From: Ptychodera flava
Taxonomy: Eukaryota; Hemichordata; Enteropneusta; Ptychoderidae
Assembly (NCBI RefSeq): GCF_041260155.1
Contig: NC_091935.1
Coordinates: forward strand, 39,331,303-39,395,302
Length of the DNA stretch: 64,000 nucleotides
Direction of reading: 5' to 3'
Position 1 is the first letter of the stretch. Each line of letters starts with the position of its first letter. Both the position numbers and the translations under genes were made by a program. The notes beneath the pieces were generated by a model. The model worked only from the letters and a program-made list of their open reading frames with translations. It was not told the origin of the DNA and did no database searches. Of the stretch, positions 9,785 through 50,500 are shown piece by piece.

Positions 9785-9805
9785 GTTGTGAATAACAGCT
9801 TCAAA

Positions 9806-10489
9806 ATGTCTTCGTCAACCACAAATCATGAGATTGTCTACACCGTGCTAACAGAGGATCACATAGAAGAAGCTGCTCAAATTTTGACAATCACATTCAT
9901 CAATGGAGAACCACTAAGCAGCGTGGTGAAACAGCCCTACGATGTAGAACTTGCAGTCAATCGAATGATCTGCCGCAAGGCGGCGCAAGATGGAGTGTCA
10001 GTGGTTGCCATTGACAAGGAGTTGAATAAAGTGGTCGGAGTTGCAGTAGGTACTATCATGGAGTTAACCGAAAACAAATCAATGCTGGATACTATCAAGC
10101 ACCTGCCAGATGAAGCAAAACCTTATTATATTGTATTCGCACTTTTAGCTGAAAAACTCGAACCGTGTTTCTTTCAGAGTCCACACTTGCGAGATAATCC
10201 TGACTGTAAAATTTTGAAGAGTATCAAATTAAGTGTCCACCCTGATTACGAAGGTCGTGGTGTCGCTACAAAAATGGCCGACATGCGCAGAGATCTGGCG
10301 GCGAAGAAAAACTTAAAATTTATCATCCTTATCGCTACTGCTGTTGGAAGTCAAAAAGTGTATACGAAATTGGGTTATAAGGACATTGGGGAACTCCCAT
10401 ACAAAGACTTCACGCATAATGATGAAATACCGTTTGCTGGAATTACCATCCCTCCTTTAGCAAAAGCTATGATCCTGCAGGTATTTTGA
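9806..10489 (+). CDS. GNAT-family N-acetyltransferase, arylalkylamine N-acetyltransferase-like (copy 2)
   Basis: Paralogue of the gene at 1202-1885: the same 227-residue length from the ATG at 9806, roughly two thirds identical by eye and alignable end to end without large gaps. The frame stays open a little further upstream to a GTG at 9788, but that is not a plausible eukaryotic start and the length match favours 9806. The GNAT acetyl-CoA motif reads VHPDYEGRGVATKM; the usual Arg/Gln at the start of R/Q-x-x-G-x-A is Glu here, unlike copy 1. The NGEPL segment with its candidate catalytic Glu is kept. Polyadenylation signals follow at 10707 and 10746. The pair is a tandem duplication in direct orientation about 8 kb apart. 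Cytosolic amine acetylation is inferred; the substrate is unknown. Confidence 0.9.
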   Translation: MSSSTTNHEIVYTVLTEDHIEEAAQILTITFINGEPLSSVVKQPYDVELAVNRMICRKAAQDGVSVVAIDKELNKVVGVAVGTIMELTENKSMLDTIKHLPDEAKPYYIVFALLAEKLEPCFFQSPHLRDNPDCKILKSIKLSVHPDYEGRGVATKMADMRRDLAAKKNLKFIILIATAVGSQKVYTKLGYKDIGELPYKDFTHNDEIPFAGITIPPLAKAMILQVF

Positions 10490-15316: not shown

Positions 15317-15521
15317 TAAGGGACTGGTCAGTTTCTTCAGCCTGGGGGGGGGGCGGTGGATTCATGGGGGGGTCACCCTGTTTTTGACTTTGGTGATAGG
15401 GGGGTCACCATGTTTTTGAAATGCCCAATAGGGGGGGGGGGTCAGTGTGTTTTTGAATTTTGACACAGGCTCATCATTGCCTAAAATGCTAGTGTCAGCC
15501 ACAAATTTCATCATTCAGTTG

Positions 15522-15811: not shown

Positions 15812-16504
15812 TGCTAAGTGAAAGTGTACCATTATGAAATCTGCATTTCATGACAAATTCCTGATACTTTTCTGTTCTCTCTATGAGAATTCAGTATGAG
15901 AAAGCAACATGCACAAATACTTCACAATATATATTTGATACAGTGACTTATTATGACAAGATATCTTTCCTTCTCATTGATGCAATTATTTTCCTTTGTT
16001 TCACAGGTTTTCTGTAGAAAGATGCTTTTTTATGAACAAAATAGCAGTTAAAAAAGGCAGTTTTTGTCATTATTAGCTGTGCTTTTATGGTTTCAATGTT
16101 ACAAGAAAAGGTCCTCTCAGGCACTGTACACATCAGATTTGGCTAAAAAGGCTCTCTATGGCTCCTCAGGAGATTTAATTGGATGGTTGGCAAGTCTTAA
16201 CACCCATCAAAGTTTTTGATTCACTGCTTTTTCCTCTTTGATATTAATGATTGACATCCATTTCTGTACAACAGTTCAGGACATCTGGTTAGGCATAGAA
16301 AGTGTGAAATACATTCACATCTCATTCAAAATACAGCTCATTCAAATTGTACTGTATTCAAACTTTAAGATTGACACTTTGAAATTCCTATCTTACAACT
16401 GACATGTCAACGATTTCATTAAAACATAGAATGACTATTTAAAATATAAATATATGTAAAATGTAAAATATAATATATATGTGTATATATATAATATATA
16501 TACC

Positions 16505-16505
<1 letters not shown>

Positions 16506-16596
<91 letters not shown>
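16506..16596. repeat. (TA)n microsatellite, left of the retroelement
   Basis: About 45 TA units directly abutting the truncated 5' end of the Penelope-like element. ORFs made of Tyr-Ile repeats across it are artefacts. Confidence 0.98.
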
Positions 16597-16602
<6 letters not shown>

Positions 16603-18488
16603 GGCAAGTTCTACCCGTATCGTAAACCGAACGACCAAACAATGTATGTCCATAAGCAGTCTAATCACCCGCCAACCATTATTAATCACATACCTGACGC
16701 AATAAGCAAACGCATCTCAACAACATCTTGTGATAAGGGCATCTTTGATAAATATAAAGGGCGATACAATACAGCGCTAAAGGCAAGCGGCTACAACGAA
16801 CAAATTGAATTCACCAAGACCAACCAATCAACGAGGAGAAGCAATAACAGGAAGCGTCATATCACGTGGTTCAACCCCCCTTTCAGCAAGAATGTGGAAA
16901 CTAACATCGGCAGGAAATTTCTCCAACTTGTCGATAAATATTTTCCAAAGGGGTCTAAACTTCACAAGATCTTCAACAGAAACACAATTAAAGTGAGTTA
17001 TAGCTGTATGAGGAATATGGCAAGCATAATCAAATCGCACAATAAGAGGGTAATCTCCAGAGAACAGCGTAAGGACCAACCAGCTGATTGCAATTGCAGG
17101 GTTAAGGTAGCGGTAAACGCTAGAGCGTCAGTTATAAACTTCAATAAAACTATTAAACATGAAAGAAGTCAACATTCTCTGTGGAATAAAAAAAACTAGA
17201 CTTTTGGGGTCATAAGCATTGCAGAGTTATAGCCCATTGAAACTTCTGAAAAACTGACCAAATAAGAGGAAGTTGGGGAGTCCTTAGTGTATTAACTATG
17301 GTAGAGGTCCCCTAGCTTTTAAAAAGTGTTTGAAAAGGGAAAGTCATTTTTTACTGTTTTTAGGAAAGTTTGACAAGGCAGTGCTTGCATTCAGAATGCG
17401 TGACTGCTATTATAAATGCATTTTTAGATTCTTTGAGTGTCAAAGAGGTGTCAAAAGTGCGATTAACCAAAAAGACTGCTCTTTGACTTCAAAAGAGGGG
17501 TGCAAATATGGCTTGTTTTCAACAATTTAGACAGAATAACAGTTTTCCTACATAATTTTATACCAATTAAATCCAACCTTTGAAATGAGATATGGACATG
17601 GAATTTTTACAGCCTATTAACAAGGTTACAGATAAGATTTGTACGGCACAATTTTCCTGTATTGAAGTACTTTTTGAAAAATCACATTTTGAAATTTGAA
17701 AGAATTTTTAATAATTTTTTGATATGTAAACCCATGTAAAATCATAAAAACAAATTTTATTTACAAATCCTGCCGTACAAATCTTACAATTAATAGTGTC
17801 AACATATTTATAACTAATTTGGTAATATTAATTTATTATTAAATTCAAAGATGTAAAAAAATATGAAAAATTAAATTTTAATATTGATTGGTGTCATATT
17901 TCAAAATCATGGCTACAAATATACAATTTTTATATTCTTTGGAGAAAGTATTAACTAAGGGAGTTATCCTGAAAATTTGAACTAAATATCTTGATTCTAA
18001 CACTTGAAACTTGACATTAACTCTGAGAAAAGAATTGGTGCAAAAATAGCCTTTACCGCTACCTTAAGTCGGCATGCCCCTTAAAGGGTAACTGTCAAGT
18101 CAAAGGCGTGGTGTACAAGGCCAACGTATCCACGGAGGACAACGGAGAGAGGGTTTACATCGGCCTCACTGATAACACCTTCAAGACGCGCTACACTAAT
18201 CACATGAAGTCGTTCCGCAACGAGAGATACAAAAACGACACCGAGTTATCAAAATATGTATGGAACTTGAGATATAAGGGACAAGACTTTGACATTTCAT
18301 GGTCAATCATTGATAAAGCATTGAGCTACTCTAACATGAACAAGCGATGTAATCTTTGTATATCAGAAAAGCTGCACATTATCAATGCTGACGAATCTAC
18401 ACTGTTAAACAAACGCTCTGAGTTGGTTTTAAAATGTCGCCACCAAAACAAATATCATTTATCGAATTTTAACACTACCTACAAATAG
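16603..18488 (+). pseudogene. Penelope-like retroelement, 5'-truncated, ORF split by an insertion
   Basis: Part 1 (16603-17104) reads in one frame from GKFYPYRKPND through SNHPPTIINHIP, TWFNPPFSKNV, NTIKVSYSCM to DCNCR, the end of a reverse transcriptase and its linker. Part 2 (18068-18488) resumes with ACPLKGNC, then VVYKA, RVYIGLTDNTFKTRY, NLCISEKL and LLNKRSE, ending in TAG at 18486-18488. Part 2 is a GIY-YIG endonuclease with its Tyr-Ile-Gly, Arg, Glu and Asn blocks. C-x-C plus C-P-L-x-G-x-C in the linker look like a metal-binding knuckle. RT followed by GIY-YIG is the hallmark of Penelope-like elements. The RT palm (catalytic Asp motifs) is missing because the copy is 5'-truncated at a TA tract. 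The split is caused by the TTAA element at 17106-18063. Confidence 0.85.
17106..18063. mobile_element. TTAA-flanked non-autonomous element inside the retroelement ORF
   Basis: TTAA at 17102-17105 and 18064-18067 flanks inverted ends GGTAGCGGTAAA (17106-17117) and TTTACCGCTACC (18052-18063); after one mismatch the match continues for GCTA. Counting one TTAA, the two ORF halves join in frame (codons GTT and AAG span the site), so this is a clean insertion into a previously open frame. Inside, TAAGATTTGTACGGCA at 17633-17648 recurs inverted at 17771-17786. There is no transposase ORF. The class is piggyBac- or Kolobok-like from the TTAA target. Confidence 0.85.
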
Positions 18489-18527: not shown

Positions 18528-18593
18528 AGTAATCCTTTCACTCTATCTGAGGATTGCAAGATGCATGAAACTTAAGTAATAGATTTCATTACT
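18528..18593 (+). ncRNA. candidate hammerhead ribozyme in the Penelope 3' region
   Basis: The core reads CTGAGGA at 18547-18553, stem II TGCA-AGA-TGCA (18555-18565), GAAA at 18567-18570, stem III ACT-TA-AGT (18570-18577) and the cleavage base A at 18578. Stem I inner helix is TCTAT (18542-18546) with ATAGA (18579-18583); an outer helix AGTAAT (18528-18533) with ATTACT (18588-18593) is separated by an asymmetric internal loop. This is a type I architecture with a very short stem III, as known for hammerheads of Penelope-like elements. It lies 40 bases after the ORF stop. The weak point is a U-U in place of the usual G-C at the base of stem II. Confidence 0.7.
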
Positions 18594-18613
18594 TTGTACT
18601 TGAAGTAATTTTG

Positions 18614-18715
<102 letters not shown>

Positions 18716-19518
18716 GTCCACCTTTTGTTTTACCTATGTCGCGCCCGGGGGGGGGGGTGTCACCCTGTTTTCGAAATTTGGAATAGGGGGGTCACCCTGT
18801 TTTCAAAATTTGGAATAGGGGGGTCAGCCACTTTTTGACGTCGGCAAAAAATAATCCAACCCCCCCCCCCCCAGGCCGAAGAAACTGACCAGTCCCTAAG
18901 TCGGGTTGGAACTTGCATGTATTGTGAGACGCGCGGATCGTCTACACAAATAGTCGATTTTCTCTTTTCCGTTCTTTTTTGGCAGGGTGTACTTATACGA
19001 TGGGTATATGTTGGCGGTACCTGGAAAGATCTGCCCTGATTTTTTGCCGGTTGACAGTGCATGAATATATCTAAAATACCATTTCTCTAATTTCTAAACT
19101 GCCCAAAAATGAGGATTTGTGAGGAACGTCAAGAAAAGCCGAAATTCCAAGACCATGTTTCCCCCAGTATACACAGCTGTCAATTGCCGTGGCGAATCAT
19201 CTAGAGCTGTAGTCTATTGTTCCTTATGCTGTTTTGAATGAAAAAGAAAACACACAAAATAACCAACATTTTTGAGTTCGGACAGCAGTCTTCTCCCTCT
19301 ACTGTCTATGATACTGACACCTGTTTTTTTGAATAGTAAATAAAAATTGCGTATGGTACTCTATTGAAAACAGGTGCTGACACACTTGGGCCTCTATATA
19401 ACCTCAAGTATCATCCAGATTACACACTGCATCATGCAATTTCCAGAATATGTGTTTGTAGCCTGATTTTCATTTTTTCACTAGCAGTCCTACACACAAT
19501 TGACAATGTGAGTGTGTT

Positions 19519-44500: not shown

Positions 44501-47500
44501 CTGCAAGCCATTTGGATTTCTGGGGTGGTGTGTCAGATACATTGTAGCAAATTTTATTGTGGGACCACAGGTCAAAGTTTAACAACCTGTCGCTCTAGCC
44601 TGATCTAGGTGTCTAGTTTTATCTTGGTTTTACACTTTAATTAAGGCACAAGCAATGTTAACTTCTGTGTTTTTTGACGTATTGAAAGTTTATTACTGGT
44701 ATAGACATTTTTCACATACTCTGATTTTTGTAGTAGTTGCTATAGCTTTCTTGTTCAATTTAAAGAAATTGTCAATGTTTTGACACAATTTTCACAATTT
44801 AAATGTTTGATAGAGAAAAGTTTTGGAGAAAAGAGAAAGAAAAAACCAGATTGTTGATTGCTTTTTATATTTCAAATTGACCTAACTTTCAAGTTTGATT
44901 TTGGTAGCGTCCGTGACAAAATTACATATCATACTAAACAGAAAATATTTTAGAAAGAAGTTCATTTTGATTACACTAAATGGTATTAATATTGTTGCTA
45001 TAGCATGGTTAATTCATGACAATAAAACTTTTAAGTACAGCATACCAGTGGAAGGACATAGAGAAGTTGAAAGTCCTATTAAAAAATATGATCAATATTG
45101 TTGTATTTCTCACTAAACTTGAGGTTGTGTTATTCATGGAAAAATTAAGTAAATCATACCAAGTATAGCTTATTTTAATGCCAATATGCATCTTTTATAT
45201 TGTAATAACATAAGAAAGCATTAACAAATCATTGTTTAAAATTTTATTATGACATTTGTGTTTCATGTACAACATTTCTGTAGCGTCCGTGACACTGCGT
45301 CGACCATATAAAACATGTGCACTGTGGTAAAACTAATGACGTTTGCTTCACCAAATTTTAGGAAGATATGCCCCATACCATAACCTTTCAACATATTATT
45401 TAACTGGACAGTTATCATGAACTTGAAATTTTGACCTAAGTGACACACTCTAGCGCACCCTGATTGTGACTGACCCCTTAGTTTGCAAAAGATTCAAGTC
45501 ATTTATACATGCATTCATGTCATTCATCATGTACCGGTATGTAAGGGTAGGTCAAACCCCTAACTGGGACCGCTAACTGGGACTCCCAGTTGGCTCAAAA
45601 TGCACTCTGGGACCGGTCCCAGTTGGCTTCAAAATGCACTCTGGGACCTGTCTCAGTTGGCCTCCAGGACCAGTCCCAGTTTGCTTCAAGGACTGCTTCC
45701 AGGACTGGTCCCAGTTGGCTTCCAGGACCGGTCCCAGTTGGCTTCAAAATGCACTCTGGGACTGCATGGTCCCATTTGGCCACCAGGATCTGTCCCAGTT
45801 CACTTAACCCTTTTCCTGCCAGACAGTAATAACTGTATCACTTCCCCATCAGCCAAGTCAGTAAAAAGCGGTATTGAGCCAAAACATGACGTATTTTCAC
45901 CCACTTGGCTTGGTATGTTATAGCATCTTTTGTCCAAAAAAAATCAACTTTACAGTATTATATTTTCAACAGCCTTCAAATGTACAGTATTATGTTAAAA
46001 TACATCATATTGAATATGTTGTGTTTCATTAATTTTAACCATCTTGACCTGGTGGTGAAATATGGACTTGGCAGGAAAAGGGTTGGGACATGTCCAATTT
46101 GTGAAGTGGGACCAGTATGGAAAAAACCAGTTACTGATACTTCATACTAATAATCTGTTAATGTTTATCTTTTTAATCTGCCATAATTATAGGTATACAC
46201 TGCATTTAATAGATCTCAATTAAGGCCAAAGTAATTTAATTCTTTGTTTTGCATCTGTGTGCACATAAAAGGTTTTTTCTACTGTCTATGGTTCGAATAG
46301 CATTTTACTGAGCAGCTATTCTGCCTACAACTCTTTGTTTACAAAATTTCACATCTTGTAAGTTATGATGATCACGATGAAAGAAGTTTCTGATGATTTT
46401 TGTAATGACACTTATGTTGTTACATTGAAATATCAAGAAAATATAACTTGTGTGTTTTAATTTTCTTGTATGTGTTTTTTTACCGCCTTCCTGCTCATGT
46501 TTTCAAACATTTGAGTGGGCGCAAAACAAAAAATGTTATTACTTTGTTCTAACTGTGATGTGCACAGTCTTAGCAATAGTACATCCTGTGCTATGGTGTG
46601 TGTGGAAATCTTATTGATAGAAAGACCGGGTACTGATGAAAAAGGGAGATGAAAATAGCTTTGCAAGACTAGCAACTCATCAAGGCATACAAATGGTATA
46701 TTATTTGAAAAGTCAGTTATCAGTCAGAATCTTGGAATGTGCTTAAACAGCAATCTGGCTAATAAAATAAATACTGTAGTTGGATTATGATGGTGATACG
46801 TATATTATGAGATATGTTCTAACAAGTATTAATACATGATCTTGTTTCATGTTTCCTTGCAGTTATGAGGTTGACTAAGCCATCATTTGCAACCACCATT
46901 CCTGTGATATCAGAAGACAGAGACCTTCCAGGCAATCTCTTTGTACAAGCCTTACAAGCAGACCTGGCTGCCACTAAAAATATTGAGTCATTTGCCACTG
47001 GGGAGCTACTAACACTTCCACAAAACTTTGGGTGAGTGAAACCGCTGTAATATTGCTTCTATGGTTACCATGATGTACTTTGATGATCTTGTCTAAATAT
47101 CATCAATTTTACAAAGCCGACAATGACCATCAAAAATGTAGACAACGACCATCAAAAATGTAGAATGTACAAAGTTGGTTTTTTGTCATAAAACCATAAA
47201 CTTTTTGTAAACATTGAAATCACTGTTGCTGCTTAAGGCAGAATGCAGTTCTGATGTAATATTATAAGTTTAATATTGACCTGCAAATATGCATTCCAGG
47301 AAGATTGTTTAAGTTATTGTGGTCATTTCTTTGATCAGTAAGGGGACCTTAAGTTTTACCTCTGTGGTACAGTATTTTGAAATTGTTCTATACCCTGGTT
47401 TGTTTGTTGATGTGATGATTCATTGCAGCCAATGGAACTTGTATGCTAAATCAGAAGTTTATACTGATTTTGATTCATACAGGAACATTTTCCTGGGAGA

Positions 47501-50500
47501 AACATTTTCATGTTATATCAGTGTACACAATGATAGTAACCAGGCTGTGCAAGAAATACTTGTCAAGACAGACTTACAGACCAGTTCACAAAGGCTTACT
47601 TTATCTGGAGGCAATGCAAAACCAAGTCCTAGTTTAGAACCTGAAAATTGCATCGATGAAGTGGTGTATCATGAAGTCAAAGAATTAGGAACTCACATGT
47701 AAGACAAACTTAATTTTGATTTGTAGACTACTAGGCCAAAGTCAGTAAATTCTTTATTACATGTACTGTATGAGTCCTTGTCTGTGTAGGTTTTCAGAGT
47801 TTTCCGGGTAAATATCACAAACTTGCAGATTTTTTCTTCATTAGCGACATTTTGTCACAAAACTAAGTCATTATTTTTACGATTCTCTGTAGCAGTGATA
47901 TCATAACAGTAGAATTGTGCGGCAACACAAAACAGTACCTTCTAGAAGCATATTTACCATTGAGTACAGGAAAGTGCAAGGTATATTAGTCGGGTCGGAA
48001 GGTAGGGTTCCCATGCACCCCATGGATGTATTTTTTTAACCTACATTTTTGTAATCCTTAGGGTCTATATTTAATGAATTTTGATGTTCCCAAAATCAAA
48101 TCGTGTCCCATGGGGTTCATTTGGCGCCATCTTTGCCGCCATCTTGGCCGCCATCTTGGATTTCAACAATGGGGTAGGGATCACGTATCTACCGCTCAAC
48201 GGAAACAGAAACAATAAAATATTATAAACGTTACATTTTTAGAAAGCCAAGATCATGGCCTTTTCATTGATATATAACTTAATAGGGATTAATAAATATT
48301 CGAACGTCGATTAGACTTTATATCGGTCATTGGCCGTAAATCGTAAAATTTGCTAAATTTCACACCCAATAATTAAGATCCCGTTCCTCCAAACAATTTT
48401 TCATAAGGTATTTATATATTTTTTGGAAGAACTCAGTGCAATAAACAAGAAAAACAACATTAAAAGTATGTGTCTTGAGATTTAGTGGGTGCATGAGCTT
48501 GTTTTCTTATTACGCGGTATGCCACATATCCGTGTGTAACATAAGGGGTAGGGGTAATGTTTCCCTTTCTGTTTCGAATCATGAATGATGAAACCATAAA
48601 AATGTTACATTTTTTGAAAGTGCTGCATCAGACCTTTCTAAAAATATATAGATTTATGGGGAAAAGTTGCATATTTAAAAGAAACAAAGCTTAAACCTTT
48701 CGGTTTGTGTCGATTTTAAGTGATTTTTTAAGAACGAAATTACAACATATGGGGTAGGGGTAATGTTTCCCTTTCTGCCTTGAAACATGAATTACGAAAC
48801 AATATAAATGTTATACTGTTTGAAAGCTCTGGAATGGGCCTTTCCAAACATGTATAGTTTTATTGGGAAAAGTCCATATTTTAAACTTACAAAGCTTATG
48901 TCTTTCAGTTTGTGTAAATTTTAAGTGATTTTTTGAGGACGAAATTACAACATATGGGGTAGGGGTAATGTTTCCCTTTCTGCCTCGAACCATGAATTAC
49001 GAAACCATATAAATGTTATACTGTTTGAAAGCTCTGAAATTGGCCTTTCTAAACATGTATAGTTTTATTGGGAAAAGTCCATATTTTAAACTTACAAAGC
49101 TTAAACCTTTCGGTTTGTGTCAATTTTAAGTCATTTTTTAAACAAAATTTTAATATAAGGGGTAGGGGTAATGTTTCCCGTTCTCCCTTGAACCATGAAT
49201 TATGAAACCATATAAATGTTATACCGTTTGAAAGCTCTGAAATTGGCCTTGCCAAACATGTGTTGTTTTATTGGGGAAAATCCATATTTTAAAGTTACAA
49301 AGCTTATGCCTTTCAGTTTGTGTCAATTTTAAGTGATTTTTTAAACAAAATTATAATATAAGGGGTAGGGGTAATATTTCCCGTTCTGCCTTGAACCATG
49401 AATTATGAAACCATATAAATGTTATACTGTTTGAAAGCTCTGAAATTGGCCTTTTCAAACATGTATAGTTTTATTGGGGAAAGTTGCATATTTGAAAGTT
49501 ACAAAGCTTAAGCCTTTCAGTTTGTGTCAATTTTAAGTGATTTTTTTGAACAATATGCACAAAACAGTTAGTCTGTTGGCCAGGTATCGAAATCATCCCC
49601 TCTAAGGCATTTTACCCACTATGATTTTCTGTTAGCTAGTATTCTCAGCTGTCATAATCTGCTTATTTTCCATTTTACTGATGATGTGTGAGAGTGTAAC
49701 GACTTGTTTGTGAAGGGCTGTCACGCCCTCCGTAGTAAAATAGGAATGGGTTAGGGGTAACATATTTACCGCTAGTCGGAAACAAAAACAAAAAAGTACC
49801 ATAAACAATACATTCTTAGAAAGCCCAGATATAAGCTTTTTACTTTTTTGATAATTATTCGACTTTAGATGACGCCAATATTCCGTATGTACATGGCGGT
49901 CAGCAGCTGAATCATTCACATAACGAACGTTGATATGGCCTGAAACTTCGGTAAATTCATTCAAGCAAACTCTTGTTTGATTAAGTTGATAGTTTTCCTT
50001 TCTTTTTTATTTCGAGTATTTGCCATGGCATGACTGAAACGAACCTTGAAACGAAGGCTGTACGTATCTATATTAGTCCGAGCCTGAGCGTGATCTGAGA
50101 GCAAACAGATCCGCAGATAATGCGAACGATCGCAACCGTTACCAACAGACTCATTATGCAGAGCCATGCCCCAAAACGCCCAACCATACTTGGCACTAAT
50201 CATGATCCCAGTCCATTTCGAGCCGGGCTTTAAGGGAAGTGCAGTGGCCTTTGAAAGGCCCTTTGGTTTGTTTTGTACCTTAGTATAGGAAGAAAACCCG
50301 ACCTGTCGTCGTTGCTGTGAATGTTTGTGTTGTTTTTAGCCTCTTTTTTGCCTATTTGAAGAATCGTCTTTGCAGCCTTCCATCCTGCGTTCTGTGTAGC
50401 GAGTGTCTTCGATCGCTCTCTTAAGTTTGTGATGTACAACTGTCTTGAGTCCCGGTGCTTATTGGGTGTAGAGGTAAAGAGTTAGAGATCAGGGTGATAA

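Follow-up and report, generated by a model that had tools for sequence, protein, structure and literature searches.

A predicted hammerhead ribozyme of the Penelope-like kind behind a GIY-YIG endonuclease frame in Ptychodera flava

Judged by its letters, a motif behind the GIY-YIG endonuclease frame of a Penelope-like element (PLE) in the hemichordate Ptychodera flava is a real hammerhead of the already known PLE kind and a predicted ribozyme. The window, that is, the whole stretch of 64,000 nt analysed here, spans positions 39,331,303 to 39,395,302 of contig NC_091935.1 (GCF_041260155.1). Our reading, in which we have good confidence, is that of a PLE hammerhead located in the stretch between successive ORFs of a head-to-tail array, with predicted dimer cleavage. 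A first-pass annotation had pointed to this place by inspection of the sequence, and the letters and positions of the motif are exactly as it gave them. The features discussed below are:

16468..16602, no strand: AT repeat on the 5′ side of the 5′-truncated element
16603..17105 (+): end of the reverse-transcriptase (RT) region, 5′-truncated (tblastn, 48-53% identity to P0126, P0128, P0140 and P0233)
17102..18063 (+): 962-bp insertion interrupting the ORF (TTAA at each junction; perfect terminal inverted repeats of 12 bp)
18045..18488 (+): GIY-YIG endonuclease part that closes the element ORF (element from 18064 onward; stop at 18486-18488)
18108-18488 (+): endonuclease ORF as listed
18528..18593 (+): interval of the first-pass annotation, including a proposed outer stem I helix (outer helix not beyond chance)
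18542..18583 (+): hammerhead motif proper (core letters, descriptor scan, three-row covariation)
18542-18546 with 18579-18583 (+): inner helix of stem I, 5 bp
18547-18553 (+): core CTGAGGA
18554/18566 (+): U-U opening of stem II, followed by 4 bp (18555-18558 with 18562-18565)
18567-18570 (+): core GAAA
18570-18572 with 18575-18577 (+): stem III, 3 bp as first drawn
18578 (+): predicted cleavage-site base, A
18578..18579 (+): predicted cleavage site, A18578/A18579 (from the type I core)
18579..18615 (+): element past the cleavage site, 37 nt to (TA)n, containing the 3′ strand of stem I
18616..18709, no strand: TA repeat on the 3′ side of the element

The motif and its host element

The type I core order is complete with three helices at 18542-18583 (+), in sense orientation to the element: CUGANGA, GAA(A) and UH follow one another and the open end lies at stem I. 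The RNA runs through stem I, CUGAGGA, stem II with loop AGA, GAA, stem III ACUUAAGU, A18578 and the return strand of stem I, the stem III sequence being an 8-nt palindrome. A tiny stem III had been proposed with a UA loop; the short helix is present, and the loop is not retained, because standard folding rules forbid one of 2 nt, so that stem III is better read as 2 bp with a UUAA tetraloop.

The proposed order of core and three helices was recovered by a descriptor, written after the candidate was seen and tolerating the U-U opening of stem II, which on both strands of the window returned a single match, at 18542-18583 (+); a second motif with three helices was found on neither strand. Taken without its helices, the core order CUGANGA-N6-24-GAAA-N2-12-UH has four occurrences on the plus strand and none on the minus strand; requiring the three helices leaves one of the four.

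The placement behind a Penelope GIY-YIG ORF was borne out as well. The motif lies 58 nt past the stop codon, the C-terminal GIY-YIG endonuclease expected of a PLE has a fold like I-TevI, and the RT fold of a relative is most like telomerase, the telomerase-like RT being the other PLE character; a first Foldseek search with the first structure found nothing at E <= 0.001. For the endonuclease part, 910 homologues were obtained at a threshold of E <= 0.001. Among the 120 matches listed, a single entry carries an organism name, Holothuria leucospilota, and the nearest homologue shows 96% identity over 92% of the query, on a 686-base contig. Two other identities were rejected on the weakness of their matches: Dam for the RT fragment (19.1 bits vs a cut-off of 28.1) and a ribosomal protein for the endonuclease. 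The ORF is open to its stop codon across the empty site of the 962-bp insertion, which has a TTAA target duplication and the inverted repeats GGTAGCGGTAAA and resembles a non-autonomous DNA transposon of the TTAA type.

Several other features of the window were observed. Inverted copies of GGGACTGGTCAGTTTCTTC(A/G)GCCTGGGGGG at 15320-15360 and 18850-18896, with 32-bp GGGGGGTCACC... repeats inside, flank the AT arrays and the retroelement and may mark where a larger mobile element terminates. GNAT acetyltransferase domains are present in the ORFs at 1202-1885 (227 aa) and 9788-10489 (233 aa), which are perhaps paralogues; the ORF at 34926-35321 matches a RING finger, and that at 47319-47702 the N-terminal domain of TRAPPC13 (E 1.1e-24). 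Such ORFs give the window a eukaryotic appearance.

Related elements, covariation and chance

In a collection of prokaryote genomes, 58 stretches matched a pattern and two of them encode relatives. Both relative-bearing contigs, found in bacterial assemblies, are probably eukaryotic contamination. One, here L002, is NZ_MPRK01000087.1, a Solemya elarraichensis symbiont record; the other, JAAEPJ010000379.1, bears two element copies in opposite orientation at its opposite ends (L001 and L005). The relatives on both contigs are retroelements with telomerase-like RT and GIY-YIG endonuclease. Within the family of the Solemya symbiont only one of 210 genomes matched, that of L002 itself, and the family of the other relative-bearing genome comprised that genome alone. 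A DNA search of both genomes with the L002 spacer returned the spacer and, in G001, one further match of 23 bases. No relative was confirmed in scans of viral contigs, and a plasmid search likewise yielded none. A core-pattern search yielded 13 matches vs 16 for its reversed control, one of the 13 (L023) being the L002 motif.

In L002 one element ORF ends at 1129 and a second one in the same direction starts at 1376 (by homology at 1436). The motif stands between them at 1250-1293 and reads CCACAC-CUGACGA-UCCAGCAAUGGU-GAA-ACGGGCCGU-U-GUGUGG, with a stem III that is palindromic save for one central G. The two ORF pieces cover different, non-overlapping protein parts, so that their membership of one family is putative; for the head-to-tail arrangement of PLEs with pseudo-LTR, L002 offers two same-direction ORFs in non-overlapping pieces and the window one truncated copy. 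The tail of L005 reads CUGACGA-GUGCGUAAGCAC-GAAAC before the contig end cuts the motif and removes its 3′ part; it was spotted by eye, since a truncated motif escapes the full descriptor. L001 is uninformative because its contig stops short of where the motif would lie, so that two of the three related tails (L002 and L005) have the motif and the third is too short to tell. The motif follows the endonuclease stop after 126 nt in L002 and 124 nt in L005. The characters of minimal PLE hammerheads, namely a short helix III, the sense strand and a position between ORFs, are all found, two ORFs being present only in L002.

The annotation had made its proposal depend on covariation among related copies, and this is seen in an alignment of three rows (window, L002 and L005, the last lacking the 3′ part). 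Of its 29 cells 27 are paired, and 8 of 13 pairs are changed on both sides, which gives compensatory change in the three helices of a type I fold, with stems I and III resting on two rows only. None of 500 shuffles reached either value, and slid versions of the alignment paired 21-52% of their cells. The three sequences support a hammerhead fold, but are few. The two cells that do not pair come one each from the window and L002, where stem II opens with U-U; the corresponding pair in L005 is G-C. Between the variant and the decayed copy that had been considered on account of this opening, the variant fits better: the U-U is common to the Solemya copy, which argues against decay, and recurs in axolotl HHR_Amex2, and the frame is open save for the insertion.

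Shuffled sequences seldom give such a motif. Over 300 dinucleotide-shuffled versions of the window, searched on both strands, two matches had a stem I of at least 3 bp, one of at least 4 bp and none of at least 5 bp. When each tail was mononucleotide-shuffled 50,000 times (for the window, the 132 nt behind the endonuclease stop codon), the full motif appeared 0, 1 and 1 times and the half motif, all that L005 shows, 7, 23 and 21 times for the window, L002 and L005, respectively.

The search with the Rfam type I model, one of the checks suggested at the outset, missed the gathering cut-off. On 76 nt of the window RF00163 (Hammerhead_1) scored 19.1 bits (E 0.011, cut-off 34), aligned to the motif end to end over model positions 1-45. 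No hammerhead was reported for the whole window at gathering, and Hammerhead_1 was absent at E <= 10 from a 501-nt stretch with the motif. Trimmed L002 gave Hammerhead_1 at 22.5 bits, under the cut-off, trimmed L005 gave Hammerhead_3 at 18.0 bits (cut-off 48.5), and L001 and L002, scanned as whole loci, were without a match up to E 5. The Hammerhead_3 match was rejected as weak, stem I being left with only 3 nt, and matches to AT repeats around the motif were set aside as well. The RF00163 gathering cut-off is a detection limit and not part of the fold, and the motif is not filed under that family.

Cleavage mode and alternative readings

Taken as a lone strand, the hammerhead folds poorly: -1.2 vs a best of -13.8 kcal/mol for the 66 nt, -0.1 vs -4.9 kcal/mol for the inner motif and -7.2 vs -12.7 for L002, under standard energy parameters that credit nothing to the non-canonical core pairs. 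A double hammerhead comes closer to the best two-strand fold, at -12.6 vs -14.1 in the window and -30.0 vs -32.6 in L002. The poor score of the lone fold makes dimer cleavage via the palindromic stem III appear more likely than cleavage of a lone motif; this is a lean and not proof, as these energies come without a shuffled control and, given a stem, a self-complementary 2-nt loop is expected by chance about 1 in 4 times. From these data we infer cleavage, its dimer mode and the role of the motif as follows. Within a transcript of such an array, the palindromic stem III strand of one copy's motif would pair with that of another to form a double hammerhead. Both motifs would then cleave immediately 3′ of the core (in the window, after A18578), and unit-length RNA with a 5′-hydroxyl end would result.

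That the motif is a PLE hammerhead of this dimer-cleaving sort seems highly probable to us. For it we count the shuffles, the covariation, the position relative to the stop codon, the second ORF of L002, both protein folds, the dimer energies and the literature; against it count the sub-cut-off Rfam scores in all three sequences, the poor lone fold, the limitation to three rows, the non-overlapping L002 ORF pieces and, in the excerpts of the work on the Anolis element PAc, a ribozyme that was active only with protein and dispensable for insertion in vitro. RNA of the window motif would probably be able to cut itself. The window copy is single and 5′-truncated; it therefore lacks a partner motif within the window, and its present effect is probably slight.

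A hammerhead by descent that is now inactive, its core held by alternative hairpins in a relic copy, is possible and less probable. The best single-strand fold does draw the core into other hairpins, and a truncated copy that is interrupted by an insertion and has no second motif in the window suits a relic; yet no part of the core is missing, every helix has matching strands, and the frame is open save for the insertion.

We think it unlikely that the motif acts singly as a full hammerhead inside an RT and GIY-YIG element, with a two-part stem I and a contact between its internal loop and the loop of stem II. Were such a loop-extended stem I with tertiary contacts real, it would link the canonical retrozyme hammerheads to the elements suspected of moving non-autonomous retrozymes, an idea to which we give equally little credence. 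Of the two-part stem I first proposed, the inner 5 bp stand. Six outer pairs do fit at 18528-18533/18588-18593, but shuffling the flanks 5,000 times yields a helix of at least 6 bp in 31% of cases; the outer helix is not seen in L002, where the best one has 4 bp and 3766 of 5000 shuffles reach it, and the single fold lies far above the minimum energy. At chance level in both sequences, the outer helix was rejected as evidence. Its 3′ arm, AUUACUU at 18588, also pairs with AAGUAAU at 18574-18580 or 18603-18609; a 3′ hairpin could form directly ahead of the terminal (TA)n and perhaps belongs to the start site of reverse transcription.

That AT-rich flanking DNA matches the motif by chance would suit the low Rfam score and its first detection by eye, but is very improbable given the low shuffle rates and two relatives that repeat the motif at the same place with compensatory changes.

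Known hammerheads and significance

Minimal type I hammerheads of PLEs were reportedly described by Cervera and de la Pena in 2014 and by Lunse, Weinberg and Breaker in 2017. That hammerheads are established in Penelope-like elements, as the annotation had stated, agrees with the excerpted text of three papers (PMC6155905, PMC7761336, PMC11167929). Within the excerpts, PLE hammerheads are conserved and minimal with a role given as unknown (PMC6155905, PMC7761336), those in tandem may self-cleave as dimers (PMC7761336), and the elements form pseudo-LTRs and tandems (PMC3846280). The window motif resembles them in being type I, with a very short helix III, behind or between ORFs of an RT and GIY-YIG element, and dimer cleavage is plausible for it too. 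It differs in that they are usually described there without helix III (PMC7761336, PMC6155905), whereas two to three pairs can be drawn here. With axolotl HHR_Amex2 it shares, according to the text seen, U-U at the helix II base and a two-pair helix III with a tetraloop; HHR_Amex2, however, resides in short non-coding tandem repeats of retrozymes and the window motif in an RT-coding element (PMC7229834).

The Poseidon element PAc of Anolis carolinensis likewise combines a hammerhead with RT and GIY-YIG and prefers AT-rich DNA, as at the AT-rich target sites here; its motif overlaps its ORF start, whereas in L002 the next ORF starts 89 nt (by homology 149 nt) past the cut. By the excerpted account, the PAc hammerhead was observed to cleave only in the presence of protein, and hammerhead mutants left in-vitro insertion unaffected (PMC11167929).

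The window motif adds a covariation-supported example to a ribozyme class that Rfam models miss at their cut-offs, and because of this such motifs are probably under-counted in genomes. The DNA retains both strands of stem I and continues as element sequence for 37 nt beyond the cleavage site before (TA)n, so that the RNA template of the window insertion would have been uncut at the A18578 site. The locus would then be an insertion from RNA not cut at its own 3′ ribozyme, in agreement with the in-vitro behaviour of PAc, for which, in the part of the report available, cleavage is unnecessary for insertion (PMC11167929).
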